DNA from: Spisula solida
Lineage: Eukaryota; Mollusca; Bivalvia; Venerida; Mactridae
DNA length: 64,000 nt
Assembly: GCA_947247005.1 (NCBI GenBank)
Contig: OX365948.1
Coordinates: 57,635,401 to 57,699,400, forward strand
Direction of reading: 5' to 3'
Shown: in pieces, positions 35,393 to 56,876 of the stretch
Numbering within the stretch: the stretch's first letter is position 1
How the letters are laid out: each line of letters begins with the position of its first letter
The notes under the pieces: model-generated
What the model was told of the DNA's origin: nothing
What the model saw: only the letters and a program-made list of their open reading frames with translations
Databases searched by the model: none
Position numbers and translations under genes: made by a program

Positions 35393-36349
35393 AAAATAAT
35401 TTCTGTGCAGAGAACTTACAGGGTACCAACAAGACAGGAACCACTGATATATGGAGTCAACCGATGGAAGGTTTGGCACCAGCAGTGATCATGTACACTA
35501 TTTTTTCCAAGGCTCACCTCGGATCACTGAAATTTGAAAGCTGAATGTATGACTGGTGTGCCTGCTGTCTATCAGTATCTAAGCCTAAATCTGTATAATT
35601 ATATTTCTGCAAGGTTGAGCATTAATTAATAACGTTTCGACCCATGAATAGGACTATTATTTCATTATTTTTGGTGCAATACATAATCATTAAACAAAGC
35701 ACTAAAAGCAGACATTATTCTTTGCCAAGGCCCTGAATGTCACCTGTAGGCTCTTTTCTTACGGGAACCATGCTCTATTAGAAACCATGTTAATTGACTC
35801 CATCAGTTAAGATGTTGATGTGAGAATGTACATGAAATTGATGTCAAGAAGACTGGACGGTTATTTGAAGCCCAAATTACCCGGATGCTGGTCGATGTCT
35901 CAGCAATGTGCTGATAGATGATCAGTATTGAATCCTGGAAAACTGTGATGGCTGGGCCTTGCAATCATACAATGATCTATCAGTCTTTCATGGACTTCAT
36001 CCCGTCATAAGATGGTCACCTGTCAGTTCTAGACATATATAGCTAAGCAATGTCTTGATTTAGAAATACCGGACAGATGTACGTCTGTCTGGTATGAGCC
36101 AAATTAGCCTAAAAGACTGTATGCCAGTCGATCAAATGAGGATCCGACTGAATTTGTGACCTAGGTATATATAAGTGCCTTGATGGTCGAAAAATATCTG
36201 AGCATATCTTTTCTTATATTTCTATCCTTTTCTATCATGCATATCTCCATCCTCTTGAACGAATCTATACTCCCATACCTTTTCTATCTAAGCGCACCGT
36301 TAAATAATTGTCAAGTCTGACAGCTTAACGTATTATGTAGATGTTATGT

Positions 36350-37859
36350 CAGGGCTCACACTGGCCATTTTAAAATAATAGCCATTTATTTTTGCCCAAC
36401 AAAAATTATAGCCAAAATTGACGCGAACTTATAATCTATGCATGGTGACTCGAACTTTATGCATGGTACATAAAGCTTTTTATGAATCATAGTCAGGGCC
36501 ATAGCTGATCATAATGAATATGTGTGGCATCTTATGCTAGGAAGTTTGGCACATACTCCAATTGCAAATTTTTTAATTTGATAGGGCTTCAGGTGCCTTT
36601 TGGGCAGTTTTCAATCTAGAAATCCTGACTAGTTATGACTCAGTCTAGTGACAGGTCAAAGACAAATTGATCATCATTTAACTTAATTAAGAATTGTCTT
36701 CATACAAATAGGCACCATTTTACTAGGGTGTGTCCAGAGGTATGCTCCCTCAAGTTCAATGAATTTGAATTCTACACTGAACATTGCATGCGACTGCGAG
36801 TTAAGGGCAGCATTGAAACAATCATTTTGTTTTGCATTTTTTCATACCTTGGGTAAATCAATAATTGTCTAGGCATATGCCTATAGAAAGCTATGCACCT
36901 GCTCTTAAAAATACACCATGTGTAATTTATAATAATATTACCTTGCACTTAATTTGTTTACTTTCCTTTATTACTCTGATAAGTACAGTGTCCATTTACA
37001 TGACACAGACAGTTGAGGAAATTGATGCCATTACAAAAGGGACAGTCAAACCACTTGTTCAATCAAATTGTCATTTCTTGATAACCATTATCTTTTCAAA
37101 CAATATAGCAGCAAGATATCCATATAAAACAGCTGCAGTGATTTTATAAATATAAGAAAAAGATATAAATATGTCCTGATAAAACCTTTCTTTTGACCAA
37201 GACTTATAGCTCAAGCAACAATCTGAAGCCTCATGAACCTTTTAAAATGGATAATTGTATTTAAAGTTTTTTAAAAAATAAGCACTTATATTTTACGAAT
37301 ATCCGAATTTTGCATGTCCGAATACTAGTCAACTTACGTTTTTGCAAACAGCTCGTAAAAATAAGTTTTATTGAATAGTTTGTTCATTTTTTAGTCAAAG
37401 CAGTCATTAGTCGATAGATTATAAATCAAATCACCTATTATTAACTATAATTAACCCTAAATTGCAATTAATCTTGTCTGCATCCCACGTCCCGGATTCG
37501 TCAGTATTTTAGACATGTTCGTCAGTATTTTAGTCCTGTCCCACGAATGTTGTTGACAGTTGATTACACCAATTAAATGGGGATTAAAAGATGGTATCAC
37601 AACAATTTATCAGTAATTAGACCTCCTGGGGCTAATGGTAATTAACAATGAAGATTATATGGGTCCAGTTTGAAGTGTGAACTTGAAAATTTGTGACACT
37701 CGATACATAGCTGATAGATAAAATAAGAAGTTATGGAGATATTTTTTTTGCAGTTTGATAAAATTATCGCCATTTTTCATCGCCAAATTGAAATAATAAT
37801 CGCCACTTTGATAAAATTATCGCAAATGGCGATAATGTCGATTGACAGCGTGAGCCCTG
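36350..37859. mobile_element. 1.5-kb non-autonomous DNA element with 6-bp flanking repeat
   Basis: Ends CAGGGCTCACACTGG and CAGCGTGAGCCCTG are inverted repeats, flanked on both sides by TTATGT. Near both ends it carries repeated motifs resembling ATCGCCATTT or TAGCCATTTA. No transposase frame is seen. Confidence 0.72.
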
Positions 37860-37906
37860 TTATGTAGATGTAGACTGTGTAAGGAAAGAATGAATATTTA
37901 TAGTAG

Positions 37907-38180
37907 CTAGCAGTGGTATGATTGATTAGTATGAATTTGTCTGTATGAAAGTGAGTGCATGTGGCGTGTCACTCTCACAGGTGCCACAAGATATGATGGA
38001 ACTGGCACGGCCACCAAACCATACACAATTTTATAAAACATGGTCAGTCTAGTGAGGTCTCCTCTGTCGCGTAGGGTCTGCCAACCAAGTTCGTTTTGCA
38101 TGCTGGTGACACTGTCATACGGGAGTAGTTATTTTTCACCAATCTTATGGCTCTACGTTGGACTTTTTCTATTTTGTTAA
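37907..38180 (-). pseudogene. Non-LTR retrotransposon fragment (end of reverse transcriptase)
   Basis: On the - strand QRRAIRLVKNNYSRMT, then after a frameshift LGWQTLRDRGDLTRLTMFYK followed by IVYGLVAVPVPSYL. This is the typical C-terminal tail of CR1/L2/Jockey-type reverse transcriptases (QRRA..., LGW.TL..RR...RL.MFYKI). Only this end is present; the frame is broken. It lies in the intron upstream of the first IFT52 coding exon. Confidence 0.7.
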
Positions 38181-38657
38181 TATTAGTTTGAGTATGGGTC
38201 TAGACCAAGATGGTATGGCAGCGGCACTACTATGCCTGAGTTTATACCGTCCAAAACAATACCGACAAATTGACAAGATTTCAATTTTTAAACATGAATC
38301 CAAAACACACATCACATTATGCACAGGTTGTCATTTATATCACAGATAGAACAATTAGAGTACGAATAACTTTAACATGACAAGACCAACTGTTTTGTAA
38401 TGTATGGACTAAAACAACGATTATATCACAGTAATCGTTACGACGAATCATATTTTTGTAAATCAAAACATTCCACTTCCCCACCCACGAAAGCGTGCTT
38501 GACTACGGATAAATCGATTCATTTTCCAACCGCGAGTTGAATATTTTAGAACTAGACAACTCTCCAATGTATTAGGGTACAATTTAACAATCTATTTGGA
38601 AAACAAGTCAAGTATTTCATTGAGTAAATGAATCGCAAATGTGATAAATATTTTTAC

Positions 38658-38675
38658 CTCAGCTGTCGGCGCCAT
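38658..38675 (-). CDS. IFT52: Possible upstream first coding exon of IFT52 (N-terminal extension)
   Basis: On the - strand an ATG at 38675 opens six codons (MAPTAE) ending at a GTAAAA donor at 38657. Joined to the AG acceptor ending at 35102, it continues in frame through one glycine codon into the usual IFT52 start, giving MAPTAEGMEEKVQ. The exon probably begins upstream near 38750 as 5' UTR. In-frame joining can occur by chance (one in three), and the known family start is the second methionine, so this may only be a 5' UTR exon. The intron 35102-38657 holds a non-autonomous element and a LINE fragment. Confidence 0.45.
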
Positions 38676-39629
38676 AGTCCGAAAAATATGCAGGTGGTTT
38701 GTGGGTAATATGACACGGGAAAAATCCAGTTTTCCGGTAGCGGACGGATATTTATCAATTCTTACCTCCCTTTTGTGATGTATACTCATCCCGTTGTATT
38801 TGTTGTAGAAATGTGTGTTAAACGTTTTTGTGATTTATAGTTTGATTATGTATAATATATTTTCAAAATTATAAATCAGTTGTCACGAATTTGTGACAGA
38901 AAAGTATCAAGTGATATTATTGCTGGAACCAGAATCTTATAAACCACCTTGTAGAAAAGGTGCGCCATAATTTTTCTCTCCTGAATGTAAATGCACCTAT
39001 CAATATTTTGAACCAGGGAGAGGCAGCGGGCATACAAAGGACGTAAGACGATTCCCCACAGTTGGGAAATTTGACACGGCAAATGATTCCCAGTCCTGGG
39101 AAATAGACTTATGCAAGATTTCAGATTGGTTAATTTAGACGTGCAAAAAAAGCAGACAAACATTTAATAATGGTGGGCCATTTGATACACCAAGCGTCTC
39201 CTACTGTGGGGATTAAGACAATTTTTTGGCTCTTAGGTGGGAAATAAGACCCCCCCACAAAGAAAGTCTAATTCCCCTGGGTCTGCCCACCACTCCCATG
39301 GAAATAATAGTGAAGGGTTCACATAAAGGGTGTTGAGCGTCTTCATATCAAATATCTTCATATTGGTAATGTTGTTGTTAACTGATATAAAATATCGACT
39401 TAAGCCTATGTTACTCCCCTGTGTAGCATAGGCCGCAGACGATTCCTCTCCTTCTCACTCCGTTCCTTGCTAGCTGTTGCAGGATGTTCATTTGGTGGAT
39501 GGTTATGCTCGGCTGGACTTAATACAAATGTTTAAGATGTAATCTTTGAAATGTATACATATAAAGTTATTGTTCTGTTCTGCACCATGCATAGAGAAGA
39601 AATGCTTCCGACAAACTTCAATTAGACAT

Positions 39630-40065
39630 AAGACCTTCAACTGTGACCTTGGCGTTTGAGATAGGAACCTTGGGTTTGCAAATGACACTCCCTCTCATGG
39701 AGATTAACACATGTGCTAAATATAAGCAAGATTGGTCAATGCATGACAAGTTGTGGTCCATACAAACTTTAACTTGACCTCCCAACTGTGACCTTGACGT
39801 TTGAGATAGGAACCTTGGGTTTGCGTATGACACTCCCTCATGGCGATTAACACATGTGCCAAATATAAGCAAGATTGGTCAATGCATGACAAGTTGTGGT
39901 CCATACAAACTTTAACTTGACCTTTGACCTCCAACTGTGACATTGACCTTTAAGATAGGAACCTTGGGTCTGTGTATGACACACCCCTTCATGCAGGGTA
40001 ACATTTATGCCAAATATAAACAAGATTGGTAAATGCATGACAAAGTTATGGTCCAGTCAAAAATA
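39630..40065. repeat. Tandem triplicate of a GACCTTTGACC-type dispersed repeat
   Basis: Three units of about 150 bp, each with GAGATAGGAACCTTGGGT, ATGACACTCCCTC, ACACATGTGCCAAATATAAG and GCATGACAAGTTGTGGTCC. Units 1 and 2 are closest. Reading frames here are repeat by-products. Confidence 0.8.
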
Positions 40066-40068
40066 AAA

Positions 40069-40495
40069 CAAGAGATGTTTGTAAAACACGTATGCCCCCA
40101 TGGCAGCCCAATAGTCAGAAATGGTGAAGGCCACAGTGACCTTTACCTTTAACCCACTGACCTCAAAATCAATAGGGGTCATCAACTGTTGCTGACCAAC
40201 CTCCATGTAATGTTTGAAGATCCTAGGTCAAAGCGTTCTGGAGTTATTGAACGGAAACCATTCAAATAGTCCGAAATAGCAAAGGTCACTGACCTTGACC
40301 TTTAACCCACTGACCTCAAAATCAATAGGGGTCATCTACTGTTGCTGACCAACCTCCATGTAGAGTTTGAAGATCCTAGATCAAAGCGTTCTCGAGTTAT
40401 TGAACGGAAACCAATTTATACGACCGATAGACAGACCGACCGACCGACCGACATGTGCAAAGCAATATACCCCCTCATCAAAGATGGGGGCATAA
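40069..40495 (-). repeat. Two nested R1 copies
   Basis: The second R1 unit begins inside the first, so ACTGACCTCAAAATCAATAG and GACCAACCTCCATGTA occur twice. It ends ATACCCCCTCATCAAAGATG, preceded by four CCGA units. Confidence 0.78.
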
Positions 40496-41057
40496 AAATA
40501 ATCAGGCAGTTGTATCTCCAGCAAGCTCTAGTATGCAATTTATTTTTTGTGTTCTGATGTTTCTTTGTAGATGGTGTAGCGCAAGGTTTTTCAACTTTTA
40601 TTTTTACTTACCTTTTGATTTGTCTGAAAGAACACGTTTCCTAAGCTAAGCGCTCTTTCATTCAGTTACCTCCCTTTTAATTAATTAGAGAAGGCATAGA
40701 TTACTTCCAGCACTTTGGTTAGGCAACAGGATACTGGTTTCTGTAGGTCATATGCGCCCATCCTTTGTCATTGTTGTATGTTTAGTAACATCATTTTACT
40801 TCCATCACAGATAAATGTACCATTGATAAAGAACTTCTTGTTTACAGAAATTGATATACACGACATAATATATCTTATAAAGTTTTCTTTAAATGTTTTT
40901 ATTCTTTTTCAATGATACATTTACCTGTAGTTTAAGTTTTGTGCAATAACTGGAGGTGTTAACCTATCGAAGGCTTCAGAGAAATCCAACACAAGGTTTG
41001 TAGATGGGTCACCTAGGGTTTTGTCTAAATAGATGTATTCTGGAACACTGCATCATC

Positions 41058-41204
41058 CAGGGCTCGACACTAACACTGGTCCGAGACCAGTGAAAATCCT
41101 GAAGGACCAGTGAAAATTCTGGAGGACCAGTAACTGTCCTATTTACAAATTTGGCGCTTTTGCCCAGTCGTACCAGTGCCCAAAATAGTTAGTGTCAAGG
41201 CCTG
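41058..41204. mobile_element. Short hAT-like MITE, 147 bp
   Basis: Ends CAGGGCTCGACACTAAC and GTTAGTGTCAAGGCCTG are inverted repeats, flanked on both sides by TCATC. Interior has two GGACCAGTGAAAAT units. Confidence 0.7.
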
Positions 41205-41361
41205 TCATCGCTTTGCTAATACTAAATATGTAGAGGAAATCTCGACTAAAATCGAGATTCTGATGTTGAGATAAATCTGAAGTTTTAATATGCCTGGGAT
41301 TCCAGGACATTCAATATAATAAAGGAAAGAGAACATAAAACAAATTTCCTCAAAACTGCAC

Positions 41362-41367
41362 TTTATT
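41362..41367 (-). other. RPS12 polyadenylation signal
   Basis: AATAAA on the - strand about 55 nt after the RPS12 stop codon, at the distance expected for a short ribosomal-protein 3' UTR. Confidence 0.65.
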
Positions 41368-41419
41368 AATGTACACTTTTACAGGCGTTTCATTTTTTTC
41401 TTGTCTTGTAGATGACAGT

Positions 41420-44400
41420 TTACTTCTTCTTGTTGAAGTATTCATTCAATACATCTAAGGCTTGGGATTCCTTGCCGTAGTCCTGTAATTATAAACATAA
41501 CACAACATGGCTAACTTGAATACTAACAGATTAAAATGCCTGGAAATATTGCAATCCAGGTTACTGGATGACAAAACTATTTAAGTCTCGAAATCACGAA
41601 ACCGCCAAAGTTTGACATAAATTACTTCATTTTCCAACATTTTCTTTATATAACATTTGAAGTCCCACAGTATTTAAGTTATATTTTGACTTCCCAGTCA
41701 CATTATCCAAACACTGGACCAACCAGCAGTTATCTGAAACAACCCTCAATATGCAGAGCGCAAGCAAGGGAGATATACAAAATATATAAAATATACAATG
41801 AGTTTGATAATTGGGTGAAACCTTAGCTGTTATGAGATCAAGTTCAGTAGCAGACAAGTTTTGAACGGTATGTTAATCATTCAGACAGATGGTCACATGA
41901 TATAACTTCACCAACACATTCAGAAGAGGGAGCATGTGGTTCCTCGTCAAAAATAAACACAATATAAACTAGTCCTAATTTCTACAGTTCTAGATGGGGA
42001 CAATCTCAAGCCTCATTTATGTTACAAAGCTTTGTCTACTAGACTCGAAACTTGGAAGTAGGTTTTAACACTGGAGTTGTCAAGTCAAGTTTTAGTTTGA
42101 TGATAATGGCTTTATTATGCTATAGTAAAAGAAAACACTCAGAAACATGTGATTCGGTGGATGTGTGTCATCCAAGATGGTTTCAGCGTGGTACATGGGT
42201 TGTCATCATATATGCTTTCATTACCAATGGCACATTTAAGCCGAGTTAGGCTAAGCACATTTTAGGCAAATATTAGAGCACTCAGAATTCTTTGGGTGTT
42301 AACATGAATCATCAACATACTTAAGATGGTGGTACATGATCTTGTCATCATAGTGCTACATGCTTACATCAGATTTAACATTTAACTTACAATTCTGATG
42401 TACAACTTAAAGACTTGAGTTTTGGTTTTAATAAAATTTCTAGCTCAAGAAAACACTCAGAAACATGTGATTCGGTGGATGTGTGTCATCCAAGATGGTT
42501 TCAGCGTGGTACATGGGTTGTCATCATATATGTTTTCTTTGCAACATTAATAGATTCTAAGCAATTTTTTGTTCATGTTTAGTGATTTTATCATGATTCT
42601 ATATAGTTGAGGAGAAACTCGGTATTGTTCTACAGTAAATGTTAATCATTCAGACAGATGGTCACATGACATAACTTCACCAACACATTCAGAAGAGGGA
42701 GCATGTGGTTCCTCATCATAAATCAACATAATATCAATTTGTTCTAAATTTTACAGTTTTGGATGATGGAGTCAACCTCAAGCCTCATTTATGTTACAAA
42801 GCTTTTGTTTACTCGACTCAAAACTTAGTTGGTATTTACACCGGAGTTGGCAAGTCAAGTTAAAGTTTGAAAATAATGGTTTTATTATGCTATAGTATAT
42901 GAAAACACTCAGAAACATGTGATTCGGTGGATGTGTGTCATCCAAGATGGTTTCAGCGTGGTACATGGTTTGTCATCATACATGTTTTCATTGTCAAGCA
43001 CAATATGCACGATTTTAGTTACTTTCTTCGATGTTAAGTTTTATTCGAGCATCATTCTAGTAATGTTTAACTTTATACTTCCTATGTACAATTTTTACAA
43101 AGAAAGCAAGCAACAAGTCTTATATAGAGTTGATTGGTACAACTTACAAGGCATGAAGTGGTAGAGCCTACTAGAGAATGTAATTATTAGAGCACTTGGA
43201 GTTCTTTGGGTGTTAACATGAATCATCAACAAACTTAAGATGGTGGTACATGATCTTGTCATCATAGTGCTACATGCTTACATCAGATTTAAGAGAAAAC
43301 TTCCAATTTTTGATATTTAACTTAAAGACTAGTTGGGCTTTGATACAATGTTCGCTAAAGAAAACACTCAGAAACATGTGATTCGGTGGATGTGTGTCAT
43401 CCAAGATGGTTTCAGCGTGGTACATGGGTTGTCATCATATATGTCTTCTTTGCGACATTAATAGATTCTAAGCAAATTTGTATTCATGTTTAGTGATTTT
43501 ATTATGATTATATATAGTTTAGGAGAAACTCATGGGTTGTCATCATGATGTTTTCTATACCAAGCATGCAAGATTTTCTTCACAATTATGTTTTATATCA
43601 ACTCACATTATCACATTATCCTTATCACCCTAGTCAATTTATACTTTCTACAACAGGAGTTCACAAATAGCAAATCTAGAGAGCAATGGTAAAATTTCTA
43701 GCTAAAGAAAACACTCAGAAACATGTGATTCGGTGGATGTGTGTCATCCAAGATGGTTTCAGCGTGGTACATGGGTTGTCATCATATTTGTTTTCTTTGC
43801 AACATTAATAGATTCTAAGCAATTTTGTATTCATGTTTAGTGATTTTATCATGATTATATATAGTTCAGGAGAAACTCAGTATTGTTCTACAGTAAATGT
43901 TAATCATTCAGACAGATGGTCACATGACATAACTTCACCAACACATTCAGAAGAGGGAGCATGTGGTTCCTCATCATAGATTAACATAATATCAATTTGT
44001 TCTAAATTTTACAGTTTTGGATGATGGAGTCAACCTCAAGCCTCATTTATGTTACAAAGCTTTTGTTTATTCGACTCGAGACTAAGTTGGTATTTACACC
44101 GGAGTTGGCAAGTCAAGTTAAAGTTTGAAAATAATGGTTTTATTATGCTGTAGTATATGAAAACACTCAGAAACATGTGATTCGGTGGATGTGTGTCATC
44201 CAAGATGGTTTCAGCGTGGTACATGGGTTGTCATCATACATGTTTTCATTGTCAAGCACAATATGCACGATTTTAGTTACTTTCTTCGATGTTAAGTTTT
44301 ATTCGAGCATCATTCTAGTAGTAACGTTTAACTTTATACTTCCTATGTGCAATTTTTACAAAGAAAGCAAGCAACAAGTCTTATATTGGGTTGATTAATA

Positions 44401-47400
44401 CAAGGCATAAAGTGGTAGAGCCTACTAGAGGATGTAATTATTAGAGCACTCAGAATTCTTTGGGTGTTATAACATGAATCATCAACAAACTTAAGATGGT
44501 GGTACATGATCTTGTCATCATAGTGATACATGCTTACATCAGATTTAAGAGAAAACTTCCAATTTTTGATATTAAACTTAAAGACTAGTAGGGCTTTGAT
44601 ACAATGTTCGCTAAAGAAAACACTCAGAAACATGTGATTCGGTGGATGTGTGTCATCCAAGATGGTTTCAGCGTGGTACATGGGTTGTCATCATATATGT
44701 TTTCTTTGCAACATTAATAGATTCTAAGCAATTTGTTATTCATGTTTAGTGATTTTATCATGATTAAATATAGTTAAGGAGACACTCTGTATTGTTCTAC
44801 AGTAAATGTTAATCATTCAGACAAATAGTCACATGACATAACTTCACCAACACATTCAGAAGAGGGAGCATGTGGTTCCTCATCATAGATTAACAAAATA
44901 TCAACGATTCTATTCTTGATTTAAAAGTATGGGATGATGGGACAATCTCAGGCCGCATTTATGTTAAAAAAGTTTTATTTATGAGACTCAAAATTGGAGT
45001 TTGTTTTTACACTGGAGTTGCCTGGTAGTTTTAGTTTTATAAAAATGCAATATTATATGAAAACACTCAGAAACATGTGATTCGGTGGATGTGTGTCATC
45101 CAAGATGGTTTCAGCGTGGTACATGGGTTGTCATCATATATGTTTTCTTTGCAACATTAATAGATTCTAAGCAAATTTTTATTCATGTTTAGTGATTTTA
45201 TCAAGATTATATATCGTTTAGGAGACACTCTGTATTGTTCTACAGTAAATGTTAATCATTCAGACAGATGGTCACATGACATAACTTCACCAACACATTC
45301 AGAAGAGGGAGCATGTGGTTCCTCATCATAGATTAACATCACACCTTTAGTTCTAAATGTTTGGGACAGTAGGACAATCTTGATGCATCATTTATGTTCA
45401 TAAGACTCGAAACTTGAAATTGGGTTTTAGACCGGATTTTCTATTATGTTTGGCAGGTCAAGTTTAGTTTGATAACAATGCAATATTATATGAAAACACT
45501 CAGAAACATGTGATTCGGTGGATGTGTGTCATCCAAGATGGTTTCAGCGTGGTACATGGTTTGTCATCATACATGTTTTCATTGTCACGCACAATATGCC
45601 TGATTTTAGTTACTTTCTTCGATGTTTAAGTTTTATTCGAGCATTATTCTAGTAAAGTTTGACTTTATACTTCCTATGTACAATTTTTACAAAGAAAGCA
45701 AGCAACAAGTCTTATATTGAGTTGATTGGTACAACTTACAAGGCATGAAGTGGTAGAGCCTATTAGAGGATGTAATTATTAGAGCACTCAGAATTGTATT
45801 GGTGTTAACATGAATCATCAACAAACTTAAGATGGTGGTACATGATCTTGTCATCATAGTGCTACATGCTTACATCAGATTCAATATTTAACTTACATTT
45901 CTAATATTAATCTTCAAGACTTGAGTTTGGCTTTGATAGAATTTCTAGCTAAAGAAAACACTCAGAAACATGTGATTCGGTGGATGTGTGTCATCCAAGA
46001 TGGTTTCAGCGTGGTACATGGGTTGTCATCATATATGTTTTCTTTGTTAGAAATTTATTCTTAAACTAAGATTCATAGCAAACTGAATTTGATTTGTAAT
46101 CAGTAACAGAAGTCTGTGTTGTGTGAATTAAATTGTATGACATTAAGCATGAGAATAAGGGGGTGGAGCAGAACAGCGGGACAATCAGTATAATGTTAAT
46201 CATTCAGACAGATAGTCACATGACATAACTTCACCAACACATTCAGAAGAGGGAGCATGTGGTTCCTCATCATAGATTAACAAAATATCAACGAATCTAT
46301 TCTTGATTTAAAAGTATGGGATGATGGGACAATCTCAGGCCGCATTTATGTTAAAAAGGCTTTATTTACGAGAATCAAAATTGGAGTTGTTTTTCCACTG
46401 GAGTTGCCCGGTAGTTTTAGTTTTATAACAATGCAATATTATTTGAAAACACTCAGAAACATGTGATTCGGTGGATGTGTGTCATCCAAGATGGTTTCAG
46501 CGTGGTACATGGGTTGTCATCATATATGTTTTCTTTGCAACATTAATAGATTCTAAGCAAATTTTTATTCATGTTTAGTGATTTTATCAAGATTATATAT
46601 CATTTAGGAGAAACTCTGTATTGTTCTATAGTAAATGTTAATCATTCAGACAGATGGTCACATGACATAACTTCACCAACACATTCAGAAGAGGGAGCAT
46701 GTGGTTCCTCATCATAGATTAACGAAGTATCAACTTGTTCTATTATATAAATTTTACAGTTTTGGACGATGAGTCGATCTGATTGAAGTTGCACAATTGC
46801 CTTGTTAAGTAACTCAAAATTTGAAATTAGCTTTTGTGAAGTGGCTAGCTAAATATTCTTTTTAGCAATCTTGAATGCAAAAGTGGGTCTTTTATTGTAA
46901 TGCCAACATCTGGGGAAACATTCTTTTTATGAATGATTGACTTTTATTTCAAAGAATTTAAGAATTTCAGATTAGATTGAAGATTGATCTACAGATATTT
47001 ATTTAATCAACATGTTACAGGAACATATTTAAAATCCCAATAAAATTTTACAAGCCTCATCAGACATAAGAACACATGTTTCTCTGCATGGGGTCTCTCA
47101 GAAGAGGGAGCATGTGGTTCCTCATCAAATAAGGCTAGATCTTGTACAATAATCGAGTATTGTTAAAGAAATCTTGCCAAAAGAAAGCGATAAACTTTGC
47201 TAAATTGTTCTATATTTAACTTTAGGCAACTACTCTATAATAGACAATCTGAAAAGACATGATTTAGTAACACTAAACATCTGACAAAACCATGTACCTA
47301 TATCTGTTATCTAAGGTCATGGGGTCATACTCACAATTTGAAAATTAACCAGTGTCAAAACACTGATCCTAGAATAGATAAGCTCTCCTGGTGAACCTTT

Positions 47401-50254
47401 TAAATGCTGTTGAAATTGTGATTTTGTGAATTTATTGCAAATGTATTAAAGAAGATTAAATCAACGATACTCTTGACTTGACCAGCAACGGTTTTCCTGT
47501 GTTTCTTTCAAGAGACAATGCTTAACTATATCAGTGGTGTCAACGAGGCCAAATTAAAAATCAGGAAATCGTATGTGGCCGACCATTTTGGCCAAACAAG
47601 AGGCCTTCAATGACGTTGTTTCCATAATTAACTCAGTTTGTTTTAAAGAAAAATACTATAACTTTGCCATTTCTTGAGATATTTTCATCAAATAACTGTC
47701 AGAAGGCTTCAAGCCATTGCTCTTTCAGGTATGATAAATCCGGAATTCCGGACAAATCAGGAAAATTGACACCCCTGCTATATACGGTTTGCTAGAAAAT
47801 AATACTGTACCTTAACAACAACACAACTACAGCCAACAACTTTTCGGGCCTTTCCTTCTTTGTCGATTTTACACAAGCCGACCCATTCACCAAGTTTCTT
47901 GTTATCATCAACCTGAAGTAAATACATATCATACTTGTTACATACAACAACATTCAATTGCTGGTGTCGAAAAACGGGATTCAATTAAATATTTCCACAT
48001 TTTAGTTAATTTTATGTCCTTTGCCATCTAAATCAGATATATGATAGTAGCCAGTATTTTCAACTATTCATTATTAACCGATTGCCAGATGAATCCTGAT
48101 TATAATTATTCTGAAACGCTGAAAGATACAATAAACTTGAAAGATATATGCGAACCTCATTAGAAGCCTGAATATTTAAAGGCTAAAAGGCAACCATAAA
48201 TTTTTGGTCAACACTCAAACGAGATGTATGATACGGGAACCTCATCAGAGAACAATACACACGTTTCTCAACACCACTTTCAGAAGAGGGAGCATGTGTT
48301 TCCTCATCATCAAAGGCACATTATCCATAATATCAATGAATTATCAGGAGAGTAGAAATTAGCTGGTAAAATCCACTGGCTATTAATTTGAACATGTTTG
48401 CCGTCTGATTTTTGTCATTTTCTTCTTTGTTATTTGAAGCAAGATTTCAAACCAACCACCTACATTTAAAGATTAACAGGCTTCATGAAAACATTTCAAC
48501 ACCCCTGTAATATTATCACTTTCTCTCGACCCGATATAGAATATGGTTAACTTCCACCCTTAAAGCATCAACATAAGAAAATTGAAGCTGTAAGATTATT
48601 ATTTAAGCCAATTAATACTGTCAATACACAGCTTCCAAATTATTTGTTTAAAGCCCTTTCAAGAGGGATTTTTCTGCACTGGAACTTTTTTTTTGGGGGG
48701 GGGGGGGATAGTTTCTGTTTGGGGACTGCCGCTGAATTTTGGCTGTATACTTGATAGATTGAAGGCCCTGAAAAATGTTTACCTTGATCAGGTTGATGCC
48801 ATGTTCAGCACAGAGAGCTTCCACAAGCTTCACGTACATGGCTTCATCACAGTTGTTTGCCAACACACACAAATGGGCTTGACGTCTGAAAATATCCAAA
48901 AAATGTTTAGTTACAGACAGTGTAAATGTGCAATTTCCATAATTCAAGGGCCACAACTCCAGTCCGAAACTTTTTAGAAACTGACCAGCACACTTTTTAT
49001 TGAAGATTTTAATATGCTGTATAGGTGGCACATTGGTCTAGTGGTAACGCGCTTGACTACAGATCGAGAGGTCCCTGGTTCGAATCTCGGCCGGGGCACT
49101 TGGTCATTTATGAAACGCTTTTAGTGTTTCCCACCTAACTAGAGACGAAACTGGTTGGAAACCCAGAGGTAGTCTCGAGTGTATAGGTGCTATACACTGA
49201 GCACGTTAAAGAACCAAGGAGTCTATTCGAAATGAGCTAGTGTAACGCACCCGGATTCCTAGTATCACACCTCTTTCTCTTGATTTTAAGTCTGCCTAGA
49301 CAAATGTCTACGTCCCCGTGAGGGGTTTGACATTAATTGAAGATAGGAAGTGATAACATGTTTATAGCTTACTTGTCAAGAGCTTTAGCACACTCGTGAA
49401 GTCCACGAGCTAATCCATCATGAATAAGTGCAGTTTTGAGTACTTCTTGGAGCCCGGTCATGACATCCATGGCACCGGCCACCCCAGTGGGAATATCATC
49501 TCTGCAAAATAAAAATTTAAGTATAAAGAGACATTCACCCTTCACCACTGTGATTTAGACAGAAAACTAGACTATTTACACGAAACCAAAACCTCAATTC
49601 TATGTCTTTCATATGCAACAACCATTACCTTTACTTTGTATCGCTTCCTACCACCGGCAGCTATGTCACAGTATGTGCAAAGGACCGCTCAATAGCAATT
49701 AGCAGTATGCGAGCACTGCCTGATAGCTAATAACTTTTCACTTCTTTGTGGGAGAAAACTTGTTTCCTAGCTAATAAGCAAAGCACATTCCTTAGGCATG
49801 GCTATTACTAGCCACATTGAGCGACTTTGGAAGACTGCTGTGTGAATCACACAAGGTGGGATACACTACCCTCTTTCCGAAGCAACATTCATGTTCACTG
49901 GCCAGGATTTGAACCATGTACCTTGGATTGGGTAGCTTTAAGTAGTTAAAATTCTAGCAACTGACGAACTGTTCCACGAGTGGATGCTTACCACTACCAG
50001 ACAAGGTATTGGGTCCGAAGACCTGCAACATGCGTGAACGATCTCAGACTCTCTGCAGCAGAGTCTTTATCACCCCTGAAGATGCCTTGTGGTACAATGG
50101 CATGCATTACATGATCAAACATAACTGTAATTGAGGTTTATATTTGAAAATGAATAGCTGTCATATTGTCTAAACAAGTCATTGCTAATACAAATGATGC
50201 TGTCAGACGGATTTATAAAGCAAATACATACCCTTCCGTATCTGAACCAGCCAT
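41420..50254 (-). CDS. RPS12: 40S ribosomal protein S12 (complete)
   Basis: Five coding exons in transcript order: 50254-50232, 49501-49373, 48885-48783, 47912-47811 and 41482-41420 (stop TAA). Phases close and all junctions are GT-AG; total 420 nt, 139 residues, against about 132 in vertebrates. The protein starts [14 protein letters not shown] and shows the S12 blocks [67 protein letters not shown] and [17 protein letters not shown], ending in NKKK. It is an L7Ae/L30e-fold protein of the small ribosomal subunit. The first intron separates a non-coding TOP exon (50433-50392) from the ATG exon (acceptor at 50275). The last intron is unusually long (6.3 kb) and packed with box C/D snoRNA units in the same orientation. 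Vertebrate RPS12 is also a snoRNA host gene. Confidence 0.97.
41872..41957 (-). ncRNA. Box C/D snoRNA family A, copy 1 (degenerate C box)
   Basis: Sense to RPS12. The 18S-complementary guide and both CTGA boxes are kept, but the C box reads TGACGA and the 5' stem is altered, so it may no longer be made. It is the copy nearest the last exon. Confidence 0.6.
42131..42219 (-). ncRNA. Box C/D snoRNA family B, copy 1
   Basis: C box ATGATGA, D' CTGA after guide CCCATGTACCACG, C'-like GGATGAC, D box CTGA after guide CGAATCACATGTTT. The terminal stem has one change (GAAAGCA against TGTTTTC). Confidence 0.8.
42274..42358 (-). ncRNA. Box C/D snoRNA family C, copy 1
   Basis: 5' stem TAGCAC, C box ATGATGA, C' TTGATGA, D box CTGA and 3' stem GTGCTCTA. 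The guide before D is CACCCAAAGAATT. The D' box is weak (CTTA-like). Sense to RPS12. Confidence 0.78.
42449..42537 (-). ncRNA. Box C/D snoRNA family B, copy 2
   Basis: All boxes present; 5' GAAAACA pairs perfectly with 3' TGTTTTC as terminal stem. Core identical to the other B copies. Confidence 0.84.
42641..42727 (-). ncRNA. Box C/D snoRNA family A, copy 2
   Basis: C box ATGATGA, guide ending GCTCCCTCTT before the internal CTGA (D'), terminal D box CTGA. The terminal stem is slightly weakened on the 5' side (GTTGATT against GATTAAC). Confidence 0.8.
42901..42989 (-). ncRNA. Box C/D snoRNA family B, copy 3
   Basis: All boxes and the terminal stem are intact; one change in the first guide (CAAACC for CAACCC near the C box). 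Confidence 0.83.
43188..43272 (-). ncRNA. Box C/D snoRNA family C, copy 2 (D box lost)
   Basis: C, C' and the terminal stem are kept, but the D box position reads CTCCA in place of CTGA, so this copy is probably not assembled into an snoRNP. Confidence 0.5.
43360..43448 (-). ncRNA. Box C/D snoRNA family B, copy 4
   Basis: Core identical to the family; one mismatch in the terminal stem (GAAGACA). Confidence 0.82.
43528..43556 (-). pseudogene. Fragment of a family B snoRNA
   Basis: Only the C box and the start of the first guide remain (about 25 nt); the D' half and D box are missing. It sits between B copies 4 and 5, where the alternating order would predict an A or C unit, so it may mark a recombination point. 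Confidence 0.6.
43707..43795 (-). ncRNA. Box C/D snoRNA family B, copy 5
   Basis: Core identical to the family; terminal stem GAAAACA with TGTTTTC intact. Confidence 0.84.
43899..43985 (-). ncRNA. Box C/D snoRNA family A, copy 3
   Basis: An 87-nt unit: 5' stem GTTAATC, C box ATGATGA, D' CTGA, C'-like GGTGAAG, D box CTGA and 3' stem GATTAAC, which pairs perfectly over 7 bp. The guide before D' carries GCTCCCTCT, complementary to the conserved 18S rRNA segment AGAGGGAGC. This is a reference copy for the family. Confidence 0.87.
44159..44247 (-). ncRNA. Box C/D snoRNA family B, copy 6
   Basis: Core boxes, both guides and the terminal stem intact. Confidence 0.84.
44442..44528 (-). ncRNA. Box C/D snoRNA family C, copy 3
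   Basis: C, C' and D boxes are intact; a two-base insertion follows C' and one stem base is changed (TATCAC). Confidence 0.7.
44616..44704 (-). ncRNA. Box C/D snoRNA family B, copy 7
   Basis: Core boxes, both guides and the terminal stem intact. Confidence 0.84.
44808..44894 (-). ncRNA. Box C/D snoRNA family A, copy 4
   Basis: All boxes and the perfect 7-bp terminal stem are present. Two substitutions lie in the D guide compared with copy 3. Confidence 0.85.
45059..45147 (-). ncRNA. Box C/D snoRNA family B, copy 8
   Basis: Core boxes, both guides and the terminal stem intact. Confidence 0.84.
45251..45337 (-). ncRNA. Box C/D snoRNA family A, copy 5
   Basis: All boxes, both guides and the 7-bp terminal stem match copy 3. 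Confidence 0.87.
45492..45580 (-). ncRNA. Box C/D snoRNA family B, copy 9
   Basis: Boxes and stem intact; shares the CAAACC variant with copy 3, and its flanks are also most like copy 3, so the two probably come from one duplicated block. Confidence 0.83.
45780..45864 (-). ncRNA. Box C/D snoRNA family C, copy 4
   Basis: Boxes and terminal stem intact; two substitutions in the D guide (ACCAATACAATT for ACCCAAAGAATT), which would change its pairing. Confidence 0.72.
45954..46042 (-). ncRNA. Box C/D snoRNA family B, copy 10
   Basis: Core boxes, both guides and the terminal stem intact. Confidence 0.84.
46195..46281 (-). ncRNA. Box C/D snoRNA family A, copy 6
   Basis: All boxes and the terminal stem are intact; one change in the D guide relative to copy 3, shared with copy 4. 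Confidence 0.86.
46445..46533 (-). ncRNA. Box C/D snoRNA family B, copy 11
   Basis: Core boxes, both guides and the terminal stem intact; first B unit in transcript order. Confidence 0.84.
46637..46723 (-). ncRNA. Box C/D snoRNA family A, copy 7
   Basis: All boxes, guides and terminal stem intact and nearly identical to copies 3 and 5. Confidence 0.87.
47053..47136 (-). ncRNA. Box C/D snoRNA family A, divergent copy 8
   Basis: The C-box half and the 18S-complementary guide are kept exactly (TGATGA, GCTCCCTCTT, CTGA), but the second half differs fully from copies 1-7, with a D box in GTCTGATG and its own stem (AGCCT with AGGCT). It resembles the intron-2 copy and looks like the older form of the family. 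Confidence 0.78.
47532..47777. mobile_element. hAT-like MITE with 6-bp target duplication
   Basis: Ends CAGTGGTGTCAACG and TTGACACCCCTG are inverted repeats flanked by CTATAT on both sides. It sits in the long RPS12 intron only 33 bp from the donor of exon 47811-47912. Confidence 0.78.
48236..48317 (-). ncRNA. Box C/D snoRNA family A, divergent copy 9 (preceding RPS12 intron)
   Basis: Lies in the intron 47913-48782. C box GATGATGA, the same guide GCTCCCTCTT before CTGA, and a D box in CTCTGATG. This one-per-intron copy is a candidate ancestral SNORD100-like gene. The terminal stem is poorly defined. Confidence 0.72.
49024..49280 (+). mobile_element. tRNA-derived SINE, full copy 2
   Basis: Same order of head and body as the copy at 18833-19087: GGTCTAGTGGTAACGCGC, GGTTCGAATCTCGGCC, then GTTTCCCACCTAACTAGAG and GCACGTTAAAGAACCA, ending ACACCTCTTTCTC. 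Inserted antisense in an RPS12 intron. Confidence 0.85.
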
Positions 50255-50391
50255 GTCTAGAAACGGACGTCCTTCTGTAAAATATAGAATAATATCAATT
50301 AGACATAGTTATAGCATTGAATTGACATAAAAACCGTCAATCAAATGTGGTTCTTAACACCGATTAAAGGCGATAAGGTAGCAGCACTTAC

Positions 50392-50433
50392 AATGAAGTT
50401 CCACTTGGGAAAAATATCCGCGTAGAAAGGAAG
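50392..50433 (-). promoter_or_regulatory. RPS12 non-coding exon 1 with 5' TOP tract and transcription start
   Basis: On the - strand the sequence CTTCCTTTC (50433-50425) is a pyrimidine tract as found at the 5' end of ribosomal protein mRNAs (TOP motif), where transcription starts at the first C. It is followed by about 33 nt of leader and a GTAAGT donor at 50391. The ATG exon has its acceptor about 115 nt further on. TOP mRNAs are translationally controlled through the mTOR/LARP1 pathway in studied animals. The start position is inferred from the motif only. Confidence 0.6.
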
Positions 50434-53400
50434 CGGAAGTTGCAATCGATCTGCTTAATGACATACATTGACAGTTGAGAACATGTTCCCCACCTTTGAC
50501 CAAACTGTCAAGAAAATGAACCGAATATGAAACGACGCGTTTTTTCGACTTTCCCGTAAAATAGATTGAAAACTATTGCTGTTGACGGTTATTGGGCGTA
50601 AAATCTGATCTAATGTGTGTATAATTTATTGAAATTTTTTCTACAGTTGAGCACTCACCGTTTGATCATTGTACACTCATATGCCAACTTAAAGTTCACA
50701 AAATACGAAAATGATTACATTTTTGGGGTGTATTTACTCAGCTAAAACAGCACAGCAGGAGCAATTTAACCCTTACGTGACTATGTTGACTATTAATAAG
50801 TAGAATACTCAATTTCTGACAGAACTAAGCAATTCTAGAACACCACTAAAAATCTACCACTAGTCTACTTGATAATGTTGCCATGGTATTTGAATATAAT
50901 TTGTCTTTGAAAACAAAATATTGTAACTTTAAATAAAGCTTATTTGAAAAAAATCGATTTCTAAGATGCAAATAGCAAGCATTTAAATTTTGTTTCGATA
51001 TTTGCAAATAATAAAATGACAAATTTTACATGGGAGTCAATGGGAACCATGTTTCGTGTTGTACTACTTTCAAATAGAAAATCTTGACATTTGCCAAAGT
51101 GATCTCTTTATATGAAATGAACCATACACAAATGAATGGCAATCATTCCTTATCATTGATCAACAAAATTCTGAATATTTGTAACCACGGCAACACAACT
51201 TATTCTACAGGTCAGGGATTTTCATTGGCATTCTAAAATTGCCTAGTAACAAGAAACGTAATACATAAAACATATTTTCTGACCTGAATCAAATCACTGT
51301 TAGATCATTCTAGCTAGCGTATGGCGTCATATTCTAACTTGGATGATTTCTTAAAATCCTGTCATTCAATTTTAAATACAGAAAACCTGTCAAAATTTCA
51401 ATGAAATTTGCACATTGTGAACTTTAATTTGGCACCCGCTAATGTATAAAAGTATATTCAATTATAACGATTATCCGTTAAAGAAGACGAAGGAGAAGTA
51501 TGTAGAAGTAGCAAAAGAAGAAGCAACAGGAGCAGCAGAAGATATCTTAGGACACCCATGAAATTAAATGACGTGTGTGAGATATAATTTCATGGATCTT
51601 CTGTAGACGCAGGTTCTATTTACAACTTCTATATCAAACTCTTTTTCTGAAGTACATGTATCATCAACTATATTTTACCCTGAATGTTACTTGTATGCAT
51701 GCTGTCACATCTTGCACTTGTGAATGTAAGGTATGCTTCCAATATTTCAGTTCTTGGCCCAAAAAGTTTGAAAATGATAAACCTAAACTTGTTTTAAAAA
51801 ATCACTTTGTTAGCAGATACATGCATCCCGACGATTTGGGCAAGACCGTCCCATGTGCATCTACAATTCTGAATTGTCTCTTGAATAATAATAGATGGTT
51901 TTACATTGTTTCTTCTTAATTAAGTTTTAGATTGTGTCAAAGATCTAAAAACAAGTATTTTTGTATCTTTGATTATAAATCTCCTCTTGTTTTTGTACGG
52001 TTTGTTCTTGACGGTGAATATTATTGATACATGTATAGTAGTGGCTTAATTGTACTTGTCATGCGCATATTAAAAATCTACATACATTACATGAACCCAA
52101 AGATATTAAAAAACAACTGTACAAGAAAGGCATAATATTAACGCATTTGTATGACGAGTGCTTAATTAAAAATCGTCACCTTAGCAGAGTAAGTCGTTTA
52201 CAAGCCTTCTTATGATAACATATGCAACTTTAAGTGCTTTTTGTTAAAGTGACGAAAAAGATAGAAAGTTTGTTATGTTAAAGTATTTTGTGACATAATA
52301 TACTAAATCTAAAGTTTGGTCATTGTTAGAATGCACGTGCGTCTCGTGCATAATATGAGTGTCACACCCGCAAGCTCTGAGACGGTTAACAGGTTCTAGG
52401 TAAAGTATCTGTCAAAATAAATTCTTAATAAAGTGCTCGGGATAAACAGGTAGGCTTTTTTTTTGGTGATAGTTGACTGCATTACCGACACATAATGTGA
52501 GGCTGCCGATTTTTAGTTCAATTTGTGGTGAATAAAATCGAGCACAGCTGGATTAACCACTTGCAAATAGGAAGAATTCTGTAAGTTTATTAAAATATGC
52601 AATCATTTATTATCCTTAATATCAGCAAAATGTATTTATTCTACCTTTTCTTATATGCGTGTGTAATGTCATGTACAAGAAATGCTGGGGGAGTGCATTG
52701 ACGTGGGTTTTAATAACTAGTATATATTCGGACATTAATCATTTCGGATAAGCAATTATCATTTTAATTTATTATTTTAAGGAATATATTTCATATTTGT
52801 TGATAAATGATTCTAGTCGAAGTTAGCTGCTTTTTTAATTCGATATTGTAGTTTGTATAACTGTGTAGTTCTACCATTCTCTAATCAGATGTTCAGATAT
52901 TAAGATATTGACTGACTTTAGCCTGACTGACTGCTGTCCATTGTTGATGATCTAGTTTATTATTATTATTGTACTCGACTTAATTACTCTTCTTTGCATT
53001 TCTCTTGATTATTTCTTGACTCCATATATACACATGACAACATACTGGCTGTGTGCTTCATCTCCATACTGTTAATTGGAAAATAATTGGAAATTAATTG
53101 GTGATCACATGAATGCTAATGGGGTAAGAAAAGGCAGTACCATGGAGTAAATGGTTGAATGTATTGGACTGTGTATTGATTCATTCCACAGGGGTTCCCT
53201 TTGTGAAACCAGTTAATATCCAAATGATTGTTTTCCGTAAAAATGGTCCTTGGTACCTAACCTGGAGGGGGGGGGGGGGGGGCACTCACCACTGTAAGAT
53301 CCATTCCATCCCATCCAATGGTGGACACGTGTGTTGAAACCCCATCCTGCCATCCAGCCATCCTAGATAAAATACTGTAAGATGTAAAGCATACATATAC

Positions 53401-53660
53401 TTTATAATACAATTGACCTCCACAGGATGTGCTTATTTTTGTGTCACCATCACAGTATTAATTTTATTCTTTTGCTTGAGCAGGGCAACTCCTACTTTAG
53501 AGGTCATGGAAAGTCATGCTGAAGTCCTTTGAGGATTCTTTTTTGCTAATTACAATGCTAAATGAGCTGTTTCAAAATCTGAAATAGTAACACTGCAATT
53601 ACTAATGTACTTGTTATCTAAATGAGCAGCACATGCAGTCTAAATTATACTTTGATTTTT

Positions 53661-53842
53661 TTATATCCCCCCATCTTGCTTTGCACATATTGCTGGGTCT
53701 TTCAGTTTGGTGACCAAATGGTTTCTGTTCAATAACTCAAGAACAATTGATCTTAGGATCCCCAGACTTTACATGACTTTGAGGTCAGTAGGACCTTATC
53801 GTTTCTAACTATTGGGCTGCCATGGGGGCATACATGTTTTAA
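53661..53842 (+). repeat. Dispersed repeat R1, internally deleted
   Basis: Matches R1 from ATCCCCCCATCTT to GGGGGCATACATGTTTTA, with the middle shortened. Confidence 0.7.
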
Positions 53843-54755
53843 ACCTTTACAGTAAGCAGTTTCAAAAAAATAATTTACAGTGTATATTAATAAGCAGGCT
53901 AGTGGCTAGATAAATGTAGCATATAACAAATGACAAGTCATAGACACTATCCACTCATGAATTCCAAACACCACGAATTGTGTAGTCCACTGATGATAAG
54001 TTTGATATCACTAGCCTTTGTTTACAAATAAAAATGATAATTGAATGCATTTTCGATGTCCATTTTTGTTCAATCTTGTGCATAATCACTTTTAATGCAT
54101 GTACTCTTTCAATCTACAGTAAGCGGTTACTCAACTGAGCAGTGTCTATATTATCCTTGTTTGTTTATTGATAAGGCCAGAGTTATTTTCATTGCTTCCT
54201 CCTACTGTTATCTAGTGGAATACATTGCATTGTTGTCTCTGGTTTTAGGTCAATAATGACTCAATGACTTTATCAATTTTTAAGGTATAACCCACCTGGG
54301 TACTGTTTTATCAAAGCACTTACGGAAATCATAAACTTACAATCAAATTTAAATTCTTCATAATTTGTTATCAATTATAAAGTGTGTTAAATGGAGCTGC
54401 AATACTAATAATGATTCAGTTAATGAACTCCTACAAACTGTATCCGTTCATATTTTGGAGTTGTTATAGTATTATAAAGAGCGTAACTGTAAGATTTTTG
54501 TAAGGGCTTTAATAAAACAGAATCCAGTACAGCTTGTTTTCTGTTTTTGACTACATATATTTTTTCTGGTAGTCTGTGGCAGATATATATGAAATATACA
54601 TATCTCATGTACTTGATGTTGATTTTGTTACTTGCTGAAAGATGTATCCCAGGTGGCATGAGTAATAGAGCGATATATATCAGCTGTCATTCTCTGCATA
54701 ACATTATGTAATAATGTATGGAGCATAAAAATATTGTCAATTGTATTGTATAGTT

Positions 54756-55007
54756 TGGAGAATTTGTCACGATTCTCGACCTTCTGTTAGCATAATTTAA
54801 TAGCTGATATATTGTCTGTACATTGTATTTGTAATCCAGGTTTTATATTTTCATTAGCGGGAAGTATCACAACGGCACTAGAGGTGTAATACCAACACAA
54901 ATCTAAAGGACCTATATTGCATGATTTTCTTGCGAAAATTTATACATTCAACACAAGAACCTTGTAACATATTCATGCATAAAGGTCAGCATCAGGTCAA
55001 ATTCTCT
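54756..55007. mobile_element. MITE with AGAGAATTTGACCTGA ends, inverted copy
   Basis: Left GGAGAATTTGTCACGATTC and right CATCAGGTCAAATTCTCT; interior collinear with the complement of 21756-21997 (CATGCATAAAGGTCAGC, CGGGAAGTATCAC). Confidence 0.62.
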
Positions 55008-55660
55008 GTGCTGTATAACTGCATGAAGATGAGTGCTGCCAGTGCAGTTCTCAGGGAGTCATTCAAAAAATGCTAACTGCAGTATGTAGTTAATCGATGC
55101 AGGAAAATGTGCTAAATCATGGAGTTTTTTGTTATATCATAGGGGCTGTTATAAGCCTGTTCCCTTGAAGAAAATCTTTAAAATAATGCAGTTTTCCCCA
55201 AACATGAAGTTTACCTCAACAAAATCCAGTGATTTTTCTTGAACAAAATTTAACAGCCTGTGCCTTTAAAATTGGGAAATATTAGCGCAATGATTCAGGA
55301 ATTATTAAAAAAAGATTGTTTTGGTTATAAATTGTTCATATTTTGCTATTTTCTACTGATAATACTCTTGTCATAATTATGTGGTAGTGACTTTTGCAAG
55401 TATGAAAATCTGTTGATTTAACTTACAGCTATACTGTAGTTGCTTTGAAACAGGGGGGAAATATGCATACTTTTTGGGAAAAAGTTATAATTTTTTGGGA
55501 AAAATGGATGTTATTTTGCTAGGGGAAGGTGTCTGTATTCGGCCCTAAAAATAGCCAAAAAATCACTGAAATCATTACCTATGTTATCAAAATACCAATA
55601 TGTATTCTCCTAATTCAGGGTAAGGCCCCATCCCCAACTGCAGGGGTTCGAAAAAAAACT

Positions 55661-55731
55661 CCTGCCAATGTAGGACTTGAACCCACAACACCCAAAAATC
55701 GACTGATCCAACTAGATGGCTGTCCACATGT
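55661..55731 (-). repeat. tRNA-like fragment
   Basis: On the - strand ACAGCCATCTAGTTGGATCAG and GGGTTCAAGTCCTAC resemble A and B boxes; no paired acceptor stem. Confidence 0.4.
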
Positions 55732-56876
55732 TCCTCCTGATATTTTAGGTCTGGCTGTAAACAAGATGGTAAACAAGATGGTTTCTGATTTATTCACTCA
55801 AGAAACCTTGGACCTCAAATTTGATGTGACCACTATGATTGGACCTAGGTTAAAACAGTTTCTCAGCTTCAGAATTCTTGATTAGCCAAATGCTCATAAG
55901 CCATATCAAAATGAATTAAGGAGGTATGAGCTGCCTTGTGCGCATGCGCGAAATTTCAAAATCTTATTAGATAAGAACAAACATGAATTTTAGTTTCAAT
56001 GATCGCATATGAATGTTGATTAATGAAAATAAACAAAATATTATCGCACAAATTAGATATTTTTAACTTTTTATTTTTTGCCTGTATGAAAAAGTGGGTG
56101 GGGAACGGCAAAATTGTGAATAATGTTGGTTCACAATAAGTCCCTACAATTGTTCAAATGCATATGCTTATATATAATATGTAGTGCATGGTTTAGTTAT
56201 AAGAGGTAGCCACACTTTGAAATATTTTTAATAAAATTTATTTCATTACAATATGCAAATTAGGTTAATTTTATGCAAATTTTTTTATAATTAATACTTT
56301 TTTATGCACAACTCCCAAAAAAGGCTGGTGACCCCTATTTTTTATTTGACTAAACTGGTGTTCTATTTGATACTAAACTTAGGGCCAATTTTAAATCATT
56401 TTCGATCGTTGGGTATTTTTTGACGTTTATTTGAAATCGTTTGAAAATCACACTTTTTTGCAAGTGGGTGGGGTAACTATTTATCATGTTCAAATACTGA
56501 ATTTGTTCACCAGGCAGCTTGAATTGTGACTAATGTCAATAGGAATGACCATTGAACACACAAAATATCATGCATTGTTTAAAAGTGGTTTCATATAGTA
56601 ATAATCTTACAAAAAACATAATTGTGCCATAAATGCAGGAAATAGATAAAATGACCAAAATACAATGGTAGGTCATTAGAAAGCCATGTATGTCGAAAAC
56701 GAGCCTGGTGACATATCTTTTTTATGATTTCAATGTTGTTCTAGAAGACTGTTCTGTCATTTTAAGATGTTTCAAGGAAAATTCGATCGTTAGATAAAAG
56801 GTGCGCGTACCTCCTTAACAGTGGGGATTTCTTGGCACCACAAAGTCCTGACTTAATCTTTGGTTTAATCTTATCT

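Follow-up and report, generated by a model that had tools for sequence, protein, structure and literature searches.

Analysis of a 64,000-nucleotide stretch of the Spisula solida genome (GCA_947247005.1, contig OX365948.1, positions 57,635,401 to 57,699,400; hereafter the window) reveals 23 box C/D small nucleolar RNA (snoRNA) units of three families, A, B and C, packed into the last intron of the gene for ribosomal protein RPS12 (eS12). Each family carries a predicted guide for a conserved methylation site in 18S ribosomal RNA (rRNA), and A and B appear to be genes that have been maintained. A family-core search of both strands of the window, with 2 to 6 mismatches allowed, found eight A, eleven B and four C units between positions 41872 and 47139 (Table 1), all on the minus strand and in the sense of RPS12, which bears out the count, placement and orientation given in a first-pass annotation of this DNA. 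That inventory had omitted a ninth A-like unit (A9) in the adjacent upstream RPS12 intron; apart from A9 and the 23 units, neither strand of the 64 kb contained a core match. Scanning for the boxes (RTGATGA and CTGA) together with a stem of ≥5 bp yielded 20 matches in the RPS12 introns, 19 of them in the array-bearing intron and the other at A9, and beyond these introns two matches on the minus strand and none on the plus strand.

The host gene lies on the minus strand and is intact, with five coding exons that encode 139 residues including a Ribosomal_L7Ae domain. By sequence identity, the protein is most like those of heterodont bivalves, the closest being Mactra antiquata (95%) and then Dreissena polymorpha (92%) among the best 120 of 3518 matches. 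The array-bearing intron (6.3 kb, GT..AG) sits inside the intact eS12 reading frame, and all 23 units, which occupy 32% of it, lie between one donor and one acceptor. In the RNA the units follow one another in the order A8 A7 B11 A6 B10 C4 B9 A5 B8 A4 B7 C3 B6 A3 B5 B4 C2 B3 A2 B2 C1 B1 A1, that is, as an A-B-A-B-C-B higher-order repeat with a period of about 1.3 kb and three to four rounds. The third round lacks one A unit and has a truncated B in its place; here the 5′ portion of a B unit abuts sequence found next to A at other places in the array, which marks a rearrangement. Repeats longer than a kilobase are generally known to cause misassembly, and haplotypes or reads might have been falsely joined in tandem; we consider this very improbable, since same-slot spacers show differences of 2% to more than 30% and since the order is not strictly periodic, one A being replaced by the B fragment.

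The boxes and terminal stems expected of C/D snoRNAs, which the first-pass annotation had ascribed to the units with mostly perfect stems, are present in the great majority. Both UGAUGA and CUGA are retained in 21 of 23 units (A, 7/8; B, 11/11; C, 3/4), the exceptions being A1 with its broken C box and C2, which has lost box D; A8 is divergent, with UUGAUGA as its C box. A 7-bp terminal stem forms in all 11 B units (with a G.U pair in two of them) and in A2 to A7 (with two G.U pairs in A2), and a 5-bp stem forms in C1, C4 and, by alignment, C2; the stems of A1 and C3 have one mismatch each, which breaks that of C3. Across B1 to B11 and A2 to A7, every stem pair survives on the RPS12 strand despite four changes, which give G.U there but would disrupt pairing in an RNA from the opposite strand; four is a small number, and no covariation was seen in these stems. 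A stem shuffle control was uninformative because the 3′ strand of the stem never varies.

Closer inspection of sequence divergence separates A and B from C. Units were compared with spacers in hand-chosen disjoint pairs, each with its own spacers; some spacers served in both the A and the B sets, and in a set of older B pairs the close pair B4-B7 was counted on the unit side only. Divergence of B was 3/356 in units and 32/821 in spacers (p 0.004), that of the older B pairs 4/267 and 40/259 (p 1.6e-9), and that of A 3/261 and 22/542 (p 0.03), so that B diverges about 5 to 10 times and A 3.5 times more slowly than the spacers. Furthermore, 84 of 89 columns are invariant across the 11 B copies, variation being confined to five columns, which fall in the stem, in a linker or, in one case, on a guide base outside the paired stretch. 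Family C keeps UGAUGA and the D′ guide in 4/4 copies while its D side is decaying. Because A and B diverge more slowly than their spacers, and C does not and has lost box D in one copy, we read A and B as apparently maintained genes and C as partly decaying. Decay of the boxes at the spacer rate, named beforehand as the sign that would speak against snoRNA genes, is thus contradicted by A and B, whereas C behaves as the spacers do. A comparison of whole repeat blocks (three comparisons; 1.2 to 1.8% in units versus 11 to 26% in spacers) was set aside, since non-homologous spacers were mixed into it.

The same data bear on the idea that the array is a mostly passive repeat, in which a few units function and the rest are a recent, satellite-like tandem amplification, homogenized by unequal exchange and gene conversion and with no role in dosage. 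The higher-order repeat itself, spacers that in some slots differ by merely 2 to 9%, the broken boxes of A1 and C2, the truncated B fragment and the poor conservation of C relative to its own spacers are what such a process would leave. However, B2-B10 and B4-B10 are identical or one base apart although their C-B spacers differ by 14 to 23%, the pooled older B pairs give the strong contrast reported above, and in none of the 11 B copies has a change hit a box or a paired guide base. We therefore hold a passive repeat to be unlikely.

To find candidate targets, the target was defined as the 18S nucleotide opposite guide position five, counted upstream from D′. Against the human 18S rRNA (1869 nt), a sequence entered by hand, the D′ guide of A pairs over 10 bp (one G.U) at G436, that of B over 11 bp (one G.U) at G1328, with 3/300 shuffled guides doing equally well, and that of C over 14 bp (three G.U) at U1326, with 0/300. 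In a second target, actual eukaryotic ribosomal DNA (rDNA; record L007), the A, B and C sites recur at 18S positions 388, 1271 and 1269; those of B and C rank top (0/100 shuffles each) and that of A is tied second. We conclude from these pairings that A, B and C each carry a predicted guide for a conserved 18S methylation site, namely G436, G1328 and U1326, respectively. The latter two are known targets: a table in PMC6466398 assigns 18S-G1328 to SNORD32 and 18S-U1326 to SNORD33. On the D side, the 20 nucleotides ahead of box D are invariant in the 11 B copies (e.g., 46445-46533), and this stretch would be an orphan guide here, under apparent constraint. A candidate D-side target of C, 18S position 1153 (9 bp), was rejected, as 13/300 shuffles were equal and the pairing is lost in C4. 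As an aside, L007 is one of seven records (L001 to L007) filed as viral or bacterial contigs that contain eukaryotic 18S rDNA, probably a contamination of public collections.

The two neighboring targets of B and C are mirrored in the units themselves. The B-C alignment scores 54.8, above all 300 inner shuffles (best, 52.6). The D′ box of B, CTGA, lies in eight bases that are extra relative to C; in C, which is without them, the same antisense stretch precedes a degenerate D′ box, CUUA, and aims two bases earlier than in B. On this single alignment, B and C look like paralogues in which the 8-base difference supplies the D′ box of B and shifts the target by two. A and B as paralogues are not supported, 20/300 shuffles being equally good.

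What are these families? At gathering thresholds, Rfam matched nothing in the window. The first-pass annotation had proposed a covariance-model search of the intron. In the relaxed listing (positions 36000 to 56000, E up to 10, with seven lower-scoring matches of the same clan not shown), A2 to A7 match SNORD100 on the correct strand with 34.5 to 38.3 bits (E 4.6e-5 to 5.4e-4), below its gathering score. The C units weakly match other C/D families (snoZ221_snoR21b, E 0.038; SNORD96, E 0.063), two B units have one match at E 9.4, and SNORD32A and SNORD33 are absent from this list with its hidden same-clan scorers. According to PMC3412847, RPS12 hosts SNORD100 in animals ranging from sponges to vertebrates, those with heavy intron loss excepted, and the predicted target of this snoRNA is 18S G436. 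Family A shares with SNORD100 (RF00609) the host gene, the box C/D form and the D′-side guide for G436; since A2 to A7 also match it in Rfam, A is a probable orthologue of SNORD100, which we file as SNORD100-like and not as a formal member because the score stays under the Rfam gathering score. A difference lies in number: one copy is the known state of SNORD100 in the literature consulted, whereas the clam has eight A units in one intron and another in the next, with scores under the curated cut-off. A9 has the boxes and the G436 guide core, resembles A8 and may represent the ancestral single copy. B and C resemble SNORD32A and SNORD33 in predicted function, their guides aiming at the same two 18S bases, and are not assigned to those families, which are missing from the Rfam list. 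Moreover, SNORD32A and SNORD33 reside in RPL13A introns, whereas B and C reside in RPS12, without an Rfam match to those families, and place the guide on the D′ side, unlike SNORD32A and SNORD33.

We propose, as a probable account of the locus, that a single RPS12 intron in a bivalve underwent tandem duplication, by which an ancestral SNORD100-like gene (A) and the paralogues B and C grew into the 23 units. The units would be transcribed together with RPS12 and recognized by the C/D core proteins through the kink-turn and, in most units, the 5- to 7-bp terminal stem; the intron would then be excised and the spacers cleared by cutting and by exonuclease trimming back to the stems. The mature RNAs would guide 2′-O-methylation at the 18S equivalents of human G436 (A), G1328 (B) and U1326 (C), and the copy number would lift guide dosage per host transcript. 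The account starts from features read directly from the DNA, namely position, strand, boxes, stems, guide complementarity and the slower divergence of A and B. The box C/D cluster of the first-pass annotation is supported by the SNORD100 matches of A2 to A7, the 18S guides of all three families and the conservation of A and B, though C is no better conserved than its spacers.

Several observations weigh against this account. The C units are no better kept than their spacers (8/162 versus 23/369, p 0.69), an earlier series of 12 flank-versus-unit tests gave p<0.05 in only five (B, 4/6; C, 1/3; A, 0/3), and gene conversion limited to the units could mimic part of their conservation. For A, the best Rfam score (38.3 bits) is below the SNORD100 gathering score of 58, and the matches of A1 and A8 are weak (E 0.11 and 1.7, respectively); in addition, a G.U-rich site (human 1167) slightly outscores G436, by 25.5 to 24.5, on both 18S sequences, and the best score of A is attained by 8/300 shuffles on the human sequence and by 2/100 on L007. 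None of the rRNAs tested offers a match to the D-side guide of A or of B. Finally, signals for internal cutting did not emerge: among 24 intron stretches folded in the search for RNase III-type hairpins between units, z ranged from −1.4 to +1.9, none folding better than its shuffles by more than 1.4 SD, and U-runs of at least four, as sought for XendoU-type cutting, occur in only 10/22 spacers, with no U-rich bias. XendoU-type enzymes cut at U-rich sites; the spacers contain more A (38%) than U (33%), and the longest helices of the folded stretches (6 to 15 bp) are not common to homologous slots.

The missing cutting signals would suit a different fate of the intron, in which it is debranched, exonucleases halt at the outermost small nucleolar ribonucleoproteins (snoRNPs) and a long, incompletely cut RNA with snoRNA ends and many snoRNPs along it (a multi-unit sno-lncRNA) remains; two snoRNAs in one intron are indeed reported to yield sno-lncRNAs (PMC11028025). 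However, A1, the outermost unit on the 3′ side, should block exonucleases poorly because its C box is broken, and the spacers diverge more freely than the A and B units, as in discarded RNA; persistence as a sno-lncRNA is thus distinctly unlikely. The position of A1 is also peculiar in that it lies 388 nucleotides before the acceptor, a distance that is far from usual; stable terminal stems are reported to compensate for an unusual distance to the acceptor (PMC10234308, citing Hirose and Steitz). It is also imaginable that hidden small noncoding exons split the 6.3 kb, giving the units mini-introns of their own, in the manner of GAS5 or the SNORD115/SNORD116 host. Donor-like words are found: GTAAGT in two C-B spacers (42390 and 45896) and two B-C spacers (43147 and 45739), GTGAGT in a B-B spacer (43606) and before A8 (47334). 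But in this search for five donor words, with acceptors unscored, GTAAGT was present in 2/4 C-B, 2/4 B-C and no A-B or B-A spacers. One mini-intron per unit is not proposed because these are too few spacers, and we regard hidden exons as quite improbable. A bolder extension of the duplication account treats the intron as a dosage amplifier of 18S methylation, which would deliver about 20 guide snoRNPs per transcript by a splicing-linked route without spacer hairpins, or as a long multi-snoRNP RNA, and in which a short insertion that moved D′ split one guide into two with targets two bases apart; this we put forward tentatively, as rather doubtful.

Table 1. The RPS12 array and its host exons (positions in the window)
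Feature	Positions	Strand	Description	Basis
RPS12 last coding exon	41420..41482	-	coding part	exon translation; protein eS12
RPS12 host intron	41483..47810	-	last intron; donor GTACAG, acceptor TAATTACAG	translated exons, splice-site surroundings
A1	41872..41958	-	SNORD100-like, degenerate; C box UUGACGA, one stem mismatch	box and stem alignments
B1	42131..42219	-	stem maintained via G.U pair	B alignment, stem check
C1	42276..42357	-	intact	core match, alignment
B2	42449..42537	-		B alignment
A2	42641..42727	-	two stem changes, each retained as G.U	A alignment, stem check
B3	42901..42989	-		B alignment
C2	43190..43271	-	box D lost (CCAA), probable pseudogene	alignment
B4	43360..43448	-	stem maintained via G.U pair	B alignment, stem check
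B fragment	43531..43555	-	truncated, at site of missing A	spacer comparison
B5	43707..43795	-		B alignment
A3	43899..43985	-		Rfam match, A alignment
B6	44159..44247	-		B alignment
C3	44446..44529	-	one stem mismatch, 2-nt insertion	alignment
B7	44616..44704	-		B alignment
A4	44808..44894	-		Rfam match, A alignment
B8	45059..45147	-		B alignment
A5	45251..45337	-		Rfam match, A alignment
B9	45492..45580	-		B alignment
C4	45782..45863	-	D-side guide diverged	core match, alignment
B10	45954..46042	-		B alignment
A6	46195..46281	-		Rfam match, A alignment
B11	46445..46533	-		B alignment
A7	46637..46723	-		Rfam match, A alignment
A8	47050..47139	-	divergent SNORD100-like, first unit in RNA	core match; Rfam SNORD100, E 1.7
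RPS12 coding exon preceding intron	47811..47912	-	translation ends ...VVVK	translation
A9	48230..48319	-	A-like, next RPS12 intron upstream	core match; named snoR30 by Rfam, E 0.044

Elsewhere in the window, a sequence resembling a transfer RNA (tRNA) and followed by a longer tail lies in an RPS12 intron at about 49020-49330; by eye it is like a short interspersed element, and ARAGORN, which found no tRNA gene in the window, does not report it. Minisatellites are present at 2083-2508 (16-bp units), 11576-11917 (85 bp), 23081-23625 (59 bp) and 58464-59039 (22 bp).

The first-pass annotation took one snoRNA per intron as the norm in animals. That is the usual rule (PMC11028025), but intronic snoRNA gene clusters exist in rice and Drosophila (PMC2780460), with several snoRNA genes per intron as here. 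Unlike those clusters, the array in S. solida consists of 23 units of just three kinds in an ordered higher-order repeat, and in a bivalve. Tandem amplification of box C/D genes is shared with SNORD115 and SNORD116, present in 30 to 50 copies (PMC3349704). In the clam, all units share a single ribosomal protein gene intron and have predicted rRNA guides. SNORD115 and SNORD116, in contrast, have one unit per host intron, an imprinted noncoding host and orphan guides. No animal intron with a comparable number of snoRNAs was found in searches of the open literature. Hence, intronic clusters and tandem C/D arrays are already known, and 23 units in one animal intron are extreme.

An animal intron usually holds one snoRNA, and exonucleases trim the debranched intron until one protected particle is left. 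Exonuclease trimming alone would not resolve 23 units in one intron, and therefore, the locus offers a direct way to test whether introns are cut internally in animals. The locus also connects three 18S sites, of which two are two bases apart, with copy number, and the small shift of the D′ box is a possible route to a new methylation target.

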